A stretch of 33,278 bases of DNA from Pseudomonadota bacterium (GTDB taxonomy: Bacteria; Pseudomonadota; Gammaproteobacteria; Burkholderiales; JABEVD01), in contig JAJZRP010000020.1 of assembly GCA_021802655.1 (NCBI GenBank), positions 1 to 33,278 on the forward strand. Reading direction: 5' to 3'. The notes under the pieces are model-generated. The model was not told where the DNA came from. It saw only the letters and a program-made list of their open reading frames with translations, and ran no database searches. Positions within the stretch are counted from its first letter, which is position 1, and each line of letters begins with the position of its first letter. This document shows, piece by piece, positions 1 through 23,962 of the stretch. A program made the position numbers and the translations under genes.

Positions 1-1817
1 AGGCTCATGCAATAGGTATGGATGCCGCTGCGCCGCGCCTCCTCCACCGCCTTCTTCGCGTCATGGCGCAGGTAATGCGAATCGCGCACGTCGACATCGG
101 CAGGTTCCCCGTCGGTGATCACCATCATGAGTTTCTTGCCGGATTTCTGCATGTCCAGGTAATGGGTCGCATGGCGTATCGCTGCCCCCATGCGGGTGGA
201 AAGCTGCCCGGTCATTCCGGCCAGTTTTGCCCTGGATAGATCGTTGTAGGGCTGGCCGAAATCCTTGAGCCGGAAATATTCGACATGGTGCCGGCTGTCC
301 GAGCAGAAACCATGGATGGCGAACGGATCGCCGACTTTCTCGATGGCATCCGCCAGCAGAACGCAGGCCTCCCGGGTGAGCTGCAGCACGGTATGCTCCT
401 GCCCCTGGACCCTCCCGTTCGTCGACTTGGAAAGATCCAGAAGCACCATCACCGAAATGTCCCGGGTCTTCCTGACCGAACTCATCATGATCCGGCTGTC
501 GGGCGGAATGCCCAGCTTGATGTCGATCTGGGCGCGGATGGCGGCATTGATGTCGATTTCGTCGCCCTCCTCGAGTTTCCTGATGCGCTGCACGCCTTCC
601 GGCTGGATGGCATCGAGCAGAATTTTCATGCGGGAAATGAGATGCCTGTTTCGGGCGATGATGTCTTCGATGATCTTCAGGTCGCCCTCCCTGGCCCGTT
701 TTTCCAGAACCAGAACCCATGACGGACGCTCGATCTGTGCCCGGTAGTCCCATTCGGCATAATGAAAGGGGGCGGAGACAGACTCCCTGCTTTCCTGTTC
801 GCTGATGTTGCCGAAATCCAGCTTGAAATTGAATATGGCTGCCAGAACCGATGATTTCTTGGCAGCTTCTCCTTCCGCTCCGTCGGCCACAGTATTGGTC
901 ATCCCGAATAGACTGGCGTACTTGAGCACTTTCTTTCGGGTATTTCGTCCGGCATTGATCGCCTTGCTGAAATCGAACTTTTTGGACTCCCATAGATGGC
1001 GGTTGTCGTCACGGTAGGGAATATTCAGCAAATCCTCATGAAGCCTGAAAGGAATATTTTTTTCCCTGAAAGAATGCGCAAGGATCACGCCGATCTCACG
1101 GGAAATCAGGTTATTCTCCAAATCGTCCACTGCATTGAAAAGCGCCCGCCCCTGCACAACCCAGGGATCCGTGTCCGGATAGGTTTCGTCCAGCAGCGCA
1201 CGAGCGAGGCGGCTGAGGTAATCGCCTGCAGTTCCCGCCTGCCCTGGGGTAGCCGTATGCAGTTTTGCCCAGGTCCGTTTCAGGCCGGGAAATTTGCGTA
1301 TTGCCAATGTTTCAACGCGAGCATCCTCGATGACGGAAATCACCGCAATCTGCCAGTTGTCGAGCGATCCCTGGGAAAAAGAACCCCTGGAAAAAACGAT
1401 GTGGGAAGCGGCATGAGCTGCAGCCGCACGATAAACCAGGCTGGCGGGAATCTCTCCGAAATCCTCATAGGCATCCGGTAACCAGATGATGCCATTTACA
1501 ACGGAGGGCCTGAAGCCGTCGCGGTTCTCATAATCGCGGCCGCTGGCCGCGGTAGTGAGTTCCCGTGCCCACAAGGCCCGCAGATACAGGTTGATGCGGC
1601 GCTGCACGTCAGTGAAGGCAATGCCCCTTCGTTCCTTGTGCAATACGCCTGGCGCCTTCTTTTCCAGGCCGAAACGTTTGAGCAGTAACCGCGCGATGCG
1701 GTTGAGGTTGTGGACGCTCACGCCCGCTCTCTTTTCGCTCAGCAAGAAATCATCAGTGCAACGCCCCGCATTGCACCTGAACACGGGTTTTCTCCATCCG
1801 GTACCGGCTATTGACAT
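1..1817 (-). CDS. NorD/CbbO-family VWA-domain protein, partial (C-terminus runs off the left edge)
   Basis: Manual minus-strand translation from ATG at 1817 (MSIAGTGWRKPVF...) is open to the window edge. It contains a MIDAS-like motif VMVLLDLSKSTNERVQG and the C-terminal VWA stretch MMVITDGEPADVDVRDSHYLRHDAKKAVEEAR, typical of NorD/CbbO. It is absent from the ORF track because no stop lies in the window. Start is 4 bp past the stop of the upstream FeS gene. Confidence 0.8.
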   Translation of the reverse strand, partial: MSIAGTGWRKPVFRCNAGRCTDDFLLSEKRAGVSVHNLNRIARLLLKRFGLEKKAPGVLHKERRGIAFTDVQRRINLYLRALWARELTTAASGRDYENRDGFRPSVVNGIIWLPDAYEDFGEIPASLVYRAAAAHAASHIVFSRGSFSQGSLDNWQIAVISVIEDARVETLAIRKFPGLKRTWAKLHTATPGQAGTAGDYLSRLARALLDETYPDTDPWVVQGRALFNAVDDLENNLISREIGVILAHSFREKNIPFRLHEDLLNIPYRDDNRHLWESKKFDFSKAINAGRNTRKKVLKYASLFGMTNTVADGAEGEAAKKSSVLAAIFNFKLDFGNISEQESRESVSAPFHYAEWDYRAQIERPSWVLVLEKRAREGDLKIIEDIIARNRHLISRMKILLDAIQPEGVQRIRKLEEGDEIDINAAIRAQIDIKLGIPPDSRIMMSSVRKTRDISVMVLLDLSKSTNGRVQGQEHTVLQLTREACVLLADAIEKVGDPFAIHGFCSDSRHHVEYFRLKDFGQPYNDLSRAKLAGMTGQLSTRMGAAIRHATHYLDMQKSGKKLMMVITDGEPADVDVRDSHYLRHDAKKAVEEARRSGIHTYCMS

Positions 1818-1820
1818 CGT

Positions 1821-3053
1821 TCATGGCTGTTCCTCGATAGGTGGTTTGGATGACGGCAACGTCACGTTCGAGCCCAACGCCTGCGCATGCGCAGTATTGC
1901 TTTGAACGCATTGCCGCCATGAGTCGGCGAGAACATTAAGCGGATCCTGCTGCAGGGAACAGGCGCATTTGCAGGCTGCCGCACGATAGCATCCTGCGAT
2001 ATTCTTGCCATTGCAGGTTAATTGCAGCGGCGCGCACTGACTGTTGCAGATATGGGCGACTCTCTGGATCTTTTGCTGCTCCAGCAGCAGCTTTTTCTGG
2101 TCTACCGATTTTTGCGTGACGATCCCCCATGCCATCATGGCGCATCCCAGCAGGAACAAAGCGCCTACCAGCCAATTGAATCCTGAAAAAACCTTGCCGA
2201 GCTTTCTGCGCCAGGTCGTTCCACTTTCGCTTTCGCCGATTTCGAACTTCAGCAACCCCCTTGTTGCGGATTTCGCATGCAGGCGGTCGCATGCGTCGAT
2301 GCATTCTCCGCAATCGATGCAGGCATCGTATATCTTGATGTCGGTCGGCTGGATGCCGGTAATGCAGCTTGTTGCGCAGTAATTGCATTTGGTGCAATCG
2401 GACGAGCGCGAAGCATCATAGGTTACATGGAGTGCATCCCGGCTCTTGAACAGCCTCTGCCCGACACGGTACAGGCAGGCGTAATCGCACAGAAAATAGC
2501 GTATCGAAGCAATGTCTATGAAGATAAGAAAAACCGCAAACAGGTACATGACGAGCATGTTCGTCTGCCGATTTGCCCCTGCAGTGAGAAAGGCCCACAC
2601 ATCGCCAGGAGTATAGAAGAACATGAAGGCGACAAGGGCCAGCATCATCGAGGCAGCCAGAAAGCTTGTGCCGAGAATGAGCCAGTTGATCACCTTGTTT
2701 CTGGAGGCTGCGACAATCATGCCCTCCCCGTCCACCCTGACATCGGCGCGCTTTCCCAGAAGTTTACGGGTCAGGCCGTTCGCCCATTCCGAAAGCAGGT
2801 TCTGCGGGCAGGCCCATCCGCACCAGACAGCGCCTATGGTCATATACGTGATGATGGGAGCGGTAGCGGCCACAAGGGCCAGACCGATCAAGAATGGGAA
2901 ATTCGACCACCAGACCTGGCGCCCCAAGGTAAGGAAGCTCGCGGACGCGAGATCGATCCGGAATAATCCGAGAGCAGGAATCAGGCATAACAGCAACAGC
3001 GTGACCAACTGGGTGGCTTTTCTTTTCCAGTGATATCGTGGCGTATTCATCAT
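1821..3053 (-). CDS. Membrane 4Fe-4S binding protein, FixG/CcoG/NapH-like, with Cys-rich C-terminal tail
   Basis: 410 aa with several TM segments, CGWACPQN and CDYACLYR motifs, and two ferredoxin-type clusters CTKCNYCATSC and CIDCGECIDAC. The C-terminus carries CNSQCAPLQLTCNGKNIAGCYRAAACKCAC. Confidence 0.85.
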   Translation of the reverse strand: MMNTPRYHWKRKATQLVTLLLLCLIPALGLFRIDLASASFLTLGRQVWWSNFPFLIGLALVAATAPIITYMTIGAVWCGWACPQNLLSEWANGLTRKLLGKRADVRVDGEGMIVAASRNKVINWLILGTSFLAASMMLALVAFMFFYTPGDVWAFLTAGANRQTNMLVMYLFAVFLIFIDIASIRYFLCDYACLYRVGQRLFKSRDALHVTYDASRSSDCTKCNYCATSCITGIQPTDIKIYDACIDCGECIDACDRLHAKSATRGLLKFEIGESESGTTWRRKLGKVFSGFNWLVGALFLLGCAMMAWGIVTQKSVDQKKLLLEQQKIQRVAHICNSQCAPLQLTCNGKNIAGCYRAAACKCACSLQQDPLNVLADSWRQCVQSNTAHAQALGSNVTLPSSKPPIEEQP

Positions 3054-21486: not shown

Positions 21487-21999
21487 ATGAAAAAACTGAC
21501 CTTTGCCCTGCTTTGCCTCGCTTTCAGCGCCGCACACGCCGAAAGCGTCTCGGTAACCATGCATCTCGTCGATTCATCGGGCACCGGCAAGGCAATCGGC
21601 ACGATCCAGGCCGAGGACAGCCCTTACGGCCTGATACTCAAATCTGATCTTTCCGGCCTCACGTCAGGGATGCACGGATTCCATGTCCATCAGAATGGGG
21701 ACTGCGGCGCAAAAATGAGTGAAGGCAAATCAGTTCCGGGACTCGCGGCAGGCGGGCATTACGACCCTCGGAACACCGGGCGCCATGAAGGCCCTTATGG
21801 CAACGGGCACCTCGGGGACCTTCCCGCACTCTTTGTGGACGCAGAAGGGAGAGCCACCCTGCCCGTGCTCGCCCCCCGCCTCAAGGTGTCGGATCTCAAG
21901 GGCAGATCGCTCATGATCCACGCCGGCGGCGATAATTATTCCGACAATCCTGCCCTCGGTGGAGGCGGAATGCGCATGGCTTGCGGCGTAGTACAATAA
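21487..21999 (+). CDS. sodC: Superoxide dismutase [Cu-Zn], periplasmic
   Basis: 170 aa: signal peptide MKKLTFALLCLAFSAAHA, GMHGFHVHQNGDC, GGHYDPRNTGRHEGPYGNGHLGDLPAL, GGMRMACGVV. Confidence 0.95.
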   Translation: MKKLTFALLCLAFSAAHAESVSVTMHLVDSSGTGKAIGTIQAEDSPYGLILKSDLSGLTSGMHGFHVHQNGDCGAKMSEGKSVPGLAAGGHYDPRNTGRHEGPYGNGHLGDLPALFVDAEGRATLPVLAPRLKVSDLKGRSLMIHAGGDNYSDNPALGGGGMRMACGVVQ

Positions 22000-22000
22000 C

Positions 22001-22972
22001 TCAGGGCTGCGCCGGCACGAAAGGGTCGGCGTAGATGTCCCTCATCGATGCGCCGGCAAGGAAGGTCTGCTTCTTCGCTGCGTTCACCATGGCGGGATTT
22101 CCGCAAAGATAGACCCGCCAGCCTGAGAGTTCGGGAATATCCCTCAGCGCGACATCGAGCACGATTCCGCTAGAGAAACCGTCAGGAGCCGCCCCTTCCG
22201 AAACGCATGGCGTATAGGTGAAGTTGGAATAATCCCTCGCAAGCCGGCGCAATTCGTCGATCAGATAAAGCCCATCCACAGTTAGACTGCCGTGATAGAG
22301 CCGGATCGGCCCGGTGTGTCCGGCAAGCAGCGCATCCCTGACGATGCCGTAAAGGGGGGCAAGCCCCGATCCGGTTCCAATCAGGAGCAGCCCCTGCTCG
22401 GGGTTTCCAGGCACATAGAAGCAATCCCCCAGAGCTTCCGAGATATCCACGGTATCTCCGGGATTCAGGCATTCGTGTATCCAGGTGCTGACGCGCCCGT
22501 CTGGAATCTTGCGCACATGCAGCTTGATGCAATCATCCAGGTTGGCCACGCTCGCGAGCGAATAGCTTCTGGCGGTGGAGTCGTCGCGAAAAAAATTGAT
22601 GTACTGCCCGGCCCTGTATTCGAAAGGTCCGACAGGGCTGAGCTTCACGCACAAAATTTCCGAATTCAGCGGCTCCAGCCCTGCCACGGTCGCAAGTATT
22701 TTTCCCTTGCCAGCCTCGGGGAGAGCCACTTCGATATCTTCGGCAGGAGTACAGGAGCAGGCGAGAAAATAATTCTGCTCGATCAGGGTGGGTTTGAGCC
22801 CTTTCTGGGATTCGGGCGGCACCCGACCCGAAACGGCGCGCATCAGGCAGGTCTGGCAAACGCCGGCCTTGCATGAAGAAGGTACCGGCACACCATGGGC
22901 AGTGAGACAATCGAGAACCGATTCATTCTCCCCGCAGTCGTAGGACGCCTTATCGAAAGTAATCCTTGTCAT
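22001..22972 (-). CDS. 2Fe-2S ferredoxin / FAD / NAD(P) oxidoreductase
   Basis: 323 aa: plant-type ferredoxin cluster CKAGVCQTC...CSC, FAD motif RSYSLAS, NAD(P) motif GTGSGLAPLYGIVRDAL, C-terminal CGNPAMV...DPFVP. Confidence 0.9.
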   Translation of the reverse strand: MTRITFDKASYDCGENESVLDCLTAHGVPVPSSCKAGVCQTCLMRAVSGRVPPESQKGLKPTLIEQNYFLACSCTPAEDIEVALPEAGKGKILATVAGLEPLNSEILCVKLSPVGPFEYRAGQYINFFRDDSTARSYSLASVANLDDCIKLHVRKIPDGRVSTWIHECLNPGDTVDISEALGDCFYVPGNPEQGLLLIGTGSGLAPLYGIVRDALLAGHTGPIRLYHGSLTVDGLYLIDELRRLARDYSNFTYTPCVSEGAAPDGFSSGIVLDVALRDIPELSGWRVYLCGNPAMVNAAKKQTFLAGASMRDIYADPFVPAQP

Positions 22973-22989: not shown

Positions 22990-23358
22990 TTATTTGCCGA
23001 GAACGTCTTTGCGGGTGCTCTCTGCGATCGCCGCAGCCTGGGCGATAAGATCCGCCGGCACCTTGAGTTCGGTGAGGGTTGCACCGATATGGCCCATGAT
23101 GGCATCAAAATGCGCATCGTTGAGCCCGCGTGCGACAAGATGCGCATGCCCGCGCCTCATGTCTTCACCCGTATAGTTGTGCGGTCCGCCGAACGCCATG
23201 GTGAGGAAGGCTTTCTGCTTGGCAGCCTGTTTATCCATATCGACGCCATCGAAGAATTTGTTGACCGTATCGTCAGCCAGCACCTTGCGGTAGAAGATGT
23301 CAACCGCAGCATTGACTGCGGCTTCGCCGCCGATTTTTTCATAGAGACTGCCACTCAT
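22990..23358 (-). CDS. Group 1 truncated hemoglobin (TrHbN-like)
   Basis: MSGSLYEKIGGEAAVNAAVDIFYRKVLADDTVNKFFDGVDMDKQAAKQKAFLTMAFGGPHNYTGEDMRRGHAHLVARGL. Contains a Tyr at the B10-like position and a His at the F8-like position. The ORF track extends upstream to 23484; start 23358 has GAAAGGAAG before it. Confidence 0.93.
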   Translation of the reverse strand: MSGSLYEKIGGEAAVNAAVDIFYRKVLADDTVNKFFDGVDMDKQAAKQKAFLTMAFGGPHNYTGEDMRRGHAHLVARGLNDAHFDAIMGHIGATLTELKVPADLIAQAAAIAESTRKDVLGK

Positions 23359-23444
23359 AGCGCTTCCTTTCGGTAGAATTGAAAATGCTCCCTTGTTATT
23401 TCCGGAATGCTTGATTAAGATCGAAGTCGAGACACGGTCACTTA

Positions 23445-23467
23445 AACATTCATTCAGAATACATGTT
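23445..23467. promoter_or_regulatory. Candidate NsrR operator (11-1-11 inverted repeat)
   Basis: AACATTCATTC-A-GAATACATGTT: arms match at 9 of 11 positions and resemble the known NsrR half-site AANATGCATTT. Lies between nsrR and the hemoglobin gene. Confidence 0.75.
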
Positions 23468-23491
23468 ATTTTTCGCCGATCCATTTGTCAA
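23463..23491 (-). promoter_or_regulatory. Sigma70 promoter TTGACA-17-TAACAT for the hemoglobin-reductase unit
   Basis: Minus strand -35 at 23491-23486, -10 at 23468-23463, exact 17-bp spacer; -10 overlaps the candidate operator. Confidence 0.75.
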
Positions 23492-23521: not shown

Positions 23522-23962
23522 GTGCGCCTGACCCTCTACTCGGACTACTCCCTGCGTGTTCTGCTCTATCTCAGCCACAAGGAAGGAGAAACCGTGACGA
23601 TCACCGAGCTGGCCAATTTCTACAAGATATCCAGGAATCATCTGGTAAAGGTAGTGCACAACCTCGGGATCAACGGATTCATTTCCACATCGAGAGGGAA
23701 ACATGGCGGAATCAGGCTGGCGCGCCCTGCCCATGCAATCACGGTTGGGGACGTGGTTCGACACACCGAACCCGATTTCGATTTGCTGGAATGCTTCAAT
23801 CCCGAAACGGATCAGTGCGTGATCACCAATACTTGCAACCTGAAATCCATGCTTTTCGAGGCGAGGAGCGCCTTCATCGAAGTGCTGGATCGCCATACTC
23901 TGGCGGAAGCTGCAGCCAAAGCGTCCTCAGAATTCCGCTCCATCCCGATTCTTCAGGGCTAG
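23522..23962 (+). CDS. nsrR: Rrf2-family nitric-oxide-sensing repressor NsrR
   Basis: GTG start: VRLTLYSDYSLRVLLYLSHKEGETVTITELANFYKISRNHLVKVVHNLGINGFISTSRGKHGGIRLARPA. Three cluster Cys in ECFNPETDQCVITNTCNL. The ORF track starts upstream at 23393. Confidence 0.9.
   Translation: MRLTLYSDYSLRVLLYLSHKEGETVTITELANFYKISRNHLVKVVHNLGINGFISTSRGKHGGIRLARPAHAITVGDVVRHTEPDFDLLECFNPETDQCVITNTCNLKSMLFEARSAFIEVLDRHTLAEAAAKASSEFRSIPILQG

Follow-up and report, generated by a model that had tools for sequence, protein, structure and literature searches.

Results

Gene content of the locus

The stretch of DNA analysed here (33,278 nucleotides; referred to as the window) carries a gene for an Rrf2-family regulator that diverges from a gene pair encoding a truncated hemoglobin and a ferredoxin-type reductase. 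The features of this locus are:

22001..22972, minus strand: fdr, [2Fe-2S] ferredoxin plus FAD/NAD(P) reductase (Pfam Fer2, FAD_binding_6 and NAD_binding_1)
22990..23358, minus strand: glbN, group-1 truncated hemoglobin of 122 amino acids (Pfam Bac_globin, 5.2e-20; cyanoglobin 2hz2, 7.7e-33)
23405..23422, minus strand: genus-conserved 18-nt leader block GATCTTAATCAAGCATTC (comparison of genus genomes)
23445..23467, no strand: NsrR-type operator, an imperfect 11-1-11 palindrome (sequence and conservation in relatives)
23463..23468, minus strand: glbN promoter -10 hexamer TAACAT (sequence and conservation in relatives)
23486..23491, minus strand: glbN promoter -35 hexamer TTGACA (conserved in relatives 16-18 bp from the operator arm)
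23522..23962, plus strand: nsrR, Rrf2-family regulator with a GTG start, Asp8 and Cys91/99/105 (domain search and alignments)

The Rrf2 protein matches PF02082, the Rrf2 winged-helix family, at 1.9e-34, and its best PDB match is Streptomyces NsrR. An earlier note had credited it with three NsrR-like cysteines and an NsrR identity. The cysteines are there, in the pattern C91-x7-C99-x5-C105, and line up together with D8 with those of E. coli NsrR; Streptomyces NsrR aligns as well. The NsrR identity is supported by the retention of the cluster ligand Asp8 and by an alignment with E. coli K-12 NsrR in which 44% of 130 residues are identical. Of the specific models, the NsrR equivalog scores best, at 129.5 bits, below its cut-off of 182, and the RirA model reaches 118.2 bits; model scores and alignment clearly separate the protein from both IscR and the SUF regulator. 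Three Rrf2 genes were found in the genome, the window's being the sole NsrR-like one. The second is IscR-like (205 bits with the IscR model, cut-off 207.55) and is followed by an iscS-like gene, while the third encodes a SUF regulator.

The glbN gene has an ATG start and a Shine-Dalgarno-like stretch, AAAGGAAG. Its product matches PF01152, and its PDB matches are cyanoglobins and group-1 truncated hemoglobins, among them Synechocystis GlbN (2hz2) and Chlamydomonas THB1 (4xdi). The alignment with 2hz2 preserves Tyr B10, Gln E7, Gln E11 and His F8, and puts a Lys at the position of the distal His (E10) of Synechocystis GlbN. The fdr gene, whose best NCBIfam match is the iron-sulfur-binding ferredoxin reductase PRK05713, under cut-off, lies 17 bp from glbN and is likely to encode its partner. 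The adjoining reductase gene is suggestive of NO dioxygenase activity in GlbN. No full flavohemoglobin scored over cut-off in the eight genus genomes, in which the matches cover the reductase part only. On its other side fdr adjoins, in convergent orientation, a gene for the Cu-Zn superoxide dismutase SodC (21487-21999). The genus also has a reductase-less trHbN paralogue with a hydrophobic N-terminus (G000:C29:2081-2599, which is L129, and L027, L052 and L094); in some genomes it is fused into a two-globin protein, and in several genus members weaker NsrR-like sites (14-17/20) lie upstream of it.

An operator that overlaps the glbN promoter

The sequence at 23445-23467, AACATTCATTCAGAATACATGTT, is an 11-1-11 inverted repeat, as the earlier note described it, with 9 of 11 arm positions matched and a T in place of the usual G in the left arm. 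On the minus strand, an exact TTGACA (23491-23486) is separated by a 17-bp spacer from TAACAT (23468-23463). The -35 hexamer agrees with the consensus at 6/6 positions and the -10 at 4/6, giving 10/12 overall. TAACAT runs into the right arm of the repeat, so that five of its six letters (23463-23467) fall within the operator. At up to 3 mismatches, AACATTCATTCAGAATACATGTT occurs a single time in the 2.01-Mb, 88%-complete assembly. The geometry of the repeat is not significant in itself, the window containing 11 repeats of the 11-1-11 form with at least 9/11 matches; likewise, chance alone would yield 0.7 promoter matches of this strength per 1.15 kb, against the one found. With such high chance levels, repeat and promoter in one sequence are suggestive, not decisive, and it is from their conservation in relatives that they draw their significance.

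Conservation of the shared letters

Relatives of glbN were gathered from 100 related genomes and from a genome collection; most are metagenome-assembled genomes. The loci most similar to that of the window belong to metagenome-assembled Gallionella, Sideroxydans and Proteobacteria, and to methanotrophs; by the similarity of this one gene, the host of the window appears to be a Gallionellaceae-like bacterium of the iron-oxidiser type. In most relatives fdr lies directly downstream of glbN, and in many nsrR is divergent upstream, making the divergent nsrR next to glbN-fdr a widely recurrent arrangement. The 56 divergent nsrR/glbN intergenic regions were thinned to 45 non-redundant ones, from Gallionellaceae-like and other Betaproteobacteria, methanotrophs and other Gammaproteobacteria, and scored against the NsrR consensus AANATGYATTYNRAATRCATNTT over its 20 specified positions, with first-order Markov controls as the null.

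Of the 45 regions, 44 contain an NsrR-type site with a score of 16/20 or more, a count that, like those below, does not represent independent events, the compared regions being mutually related. Under the null, the probability per region is 0.008 for a score of at least 16 (0.8% of the controls) and 0.0007 for at least 17. The NsrR-site identity proposed for the operator is thereby supported. The -10 was then defined as the base before the operator arm plus the arm's AANAT, in the 43 regions with room for it. In 39 of the 43, this outer-arm -10 (mostly TAASAT) is preceded at a distance of 16-18 bp by a TTGACA-like -35; such a -35, with at least 5/6 matches, is found at spacers of 16, 17 and 18 bp in 2, 27 and 10 regions, respectively, and in 0 or 1 region at each of the other spacers (8-15 and 19-29 bp). 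The T before the arm, which the -10 requires and the palindrome does not, is kept in 40 of 44 sites; the mirror-image A is kept in 24. From the retention of this T and the spacing of the -35 it follows that this arm of the operator also serves as the -10, in the glbN direction. The proposed promoter, its orientation and the lodging of its -10 in the repeat are accordingly all upheld by the comparison. Despite the relatedness of the regions, their spread over Beta- and Gammaproteobacteria makes a strong case for this fusion of operator and -10. The nsrR/glbN cassette may have moved horizontally.

The glbN leader

The 18-nt block GATCTTAATCAAGCATTC is identical in six of the eight genus genomes and has 2 mismatches in the other two; within the window's genome it occurs at the glbN promoter only. 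Read on the plus strand, the block looks similar to an FNR/DNR box (CTTGAT-TAAG-ATC), and three proteins of the genome match HTH_Crp_2 over cut-off. No known RNA family was found in the leader, the one match, a chance one, being far under the gathering score. Other Gallionellaceae-like loci (L037, L045, L051, L056, L057, L063 and others) have a small GC hairpin, GCCGGA..TCCGGC, about 20-45 nt before glbN, followed in L063 by a T run. In 13 relatives 86.7% of its cells are paired; covariation does not rise above that of shuffles, and for this reason we make no claim for it. Methylobacter-type loci (L071, L082, L091, L107, L111) carry a second, shorter GATGTATTTTAAACATC-like palindrome between operator and glbN.

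Other candidate NsrR sites

A scan with the NsrR consensus at up to 3 mismatches returned four NsrR-like sites in the genome, two of them on contig C61 (G000:C61, L127). One precedes genes for a DsrC-like protein and an EmrB-like (MFS) transporter; the other lies ahead of the gene for an unannotated, secreted-looking protein, which is followed by one for a TlpA/thioredoxin-like protein. The two sites flank the TlpA-like unit. In another genus member (G002), an NsrR-like site stands before the DsrC-like gene, the equivalent of that on C61, and nnrS comes next; Rodionov et al. 2005 (PMC1274295) count NnrS among the well-conserved targets of NsrR. Single sites of this kind, at 17-18/20, carry less weight than the glbN operator. 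The suggestion that the regulon might include norD found no support within the window, which contains no second site at up to 3 mismatches and hence, at that threshold, none close to the norD-like gene. This gene (3-1817, minus strand) is NorD-like by eye, matched no family in an NCBIfam search of its protein, and is adjacent to a gene for a CcoG/NapH-like ferredoxin-type membrane protein (1821-3053, minus strand). A search for the NnrS family gave no match in the window's genome or in any control genome, and a survey for COX1/NO-reductase gave a short partial match alone in this 88%-complete genome.

Discussion

Proteins of the NsrR family bind DNA in an Fe-S-dependent manner and lose this ability with NO (PMC9338935). 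One can envision the Fe-S-loaded NsrR dimer sitting on the palindrome at 23445-23467 and keeping RNA polymerase off the glbN promoter, the outer arm of the palindrome being also the -10. Damage of the cluster by NO would release the protein from DNA and allow the glbN-fdr operon to be transcribed. The truncated hemoglobin would then oxidise NO to nitrate and be re-reduced by the ferredoxin-type reductase, so that GlbN and Fdr together might take the place of the flavohemoglobin apparently missing from the genus. That glbN is repressed through a blocked -10 and relieved by NO is a well-supported inference; binding by NsrR, the response to NO and the capacity of GlbN and Fdr to act as an NO dioxygenase are predicted from sequence. 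We consider it highly probable that this account, taken as a whole, is correct.

The same operator could serve a two-way switch, repressing nsrR as well, which would be compatible with NO-relieved repression of glbN. Its centre precedes the nsrR start by about 66 bp, and in Streptomyces an operator for NsrR is found at the nsrR gene itself (PMC9338935). Against this, the 43 regions hold no conserved -35 toward nsrR at 17-18 bp, and three at most at any spacer, and the distance from operator to nsrR varies from 36 to 206 bp among relatives. On balance we give autoregulation slightly less than an even chance. It is less likely still that the 18-nt leader block is the site of another regulator or an RNA control element, through which glbN-fdr would integrate NO with a further signal such as oxygen.

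The Rrf2 protein might instead be a RirA/IscR-like iron or redox sensor, in which case the operon would answer iron or O2, not NO, and the globin would serve O2 handling or a terminal oxidase. The RirA score is close to that of the NsrR model, and the 2013 Sideroxydans/Gallionella genome paper preferred a terminal-oxidase role for the trHbN of Sideroxydans ES-1 (PMC3770913). However, the resemblance to E. coli NsrR, Asp8 included, the agreement of the operator with the published NsrR consensus, the recurrence of the motif at the DsrC-nnrS unit of a genus member and a reductase partner that suits an NO dioxygenase make this improbable, and our findings speak against a terminal-oxidase role for the reductase-paired trHbN copy. 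Chance matches, for which the abundance of similar repeats and promoters might plead, can be rejected with near certainty in view of a sequence kept in 44/45 regions and a spacing kept in 39/43, across two proteobacterial classes.

NO-relieved repression by NsrR would place the locus among known systems. The published NsrR motif is gATGyAT-N5-ATrCATc, with a G-to-T variant in Neisseria (Rodionov et al. 2005, PMC1274295), as in the window's left arm. E. coli NsrR sites use the 11-1-11 form, for example AAGATGCATTTAAAATGCATCTT at ytfE (PMC5320621). The window resembles the E. coli system (hmp, ytfE and hcp sites) in having a AAGATGCATTTAAAATGCATCTT-type palindrome and a related regulator, in which the first cysteine spacing is x7 in place of x4; the E. 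coli target is a one-chain flavohemoglobin, whereas here globin and reductase are encoded by two genes. The closest parallel is glbN-lpg2536 of Legionella pneumophila, predicted to be the sole NsrR target there and proposed to function in NO oxidation (Rodionov et al. 2005, PMC1274295), a prediction repeated by Gardner 2012 (PMC3820574). Both loci combine an NsrR site, a truncated (cyano)globin and a ferredoxin reductase, in organisms that lack hmp, that of the window apparently so. Compared by published gene content, the window differs in that nsrR is divergent and adjacent; in addition, its host is Gallionellaceae-like and the fusion of -10 and operator is seen to be conserved. This kind of switch is thus already known, and what is new is the host group and the conserved fusion.

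Taken together, these data make a strong sequence-based case that the reductase-paired truncated hemoglobin of Gallionellaceae-like bacteria and methanotrophs is an NsrR-controlled NO-defence enzyme. The promoter's -10 and the repressor site share letters that have been kept across two proteobacterial classes, and these shared letters make the blocking mechanism directly testable.
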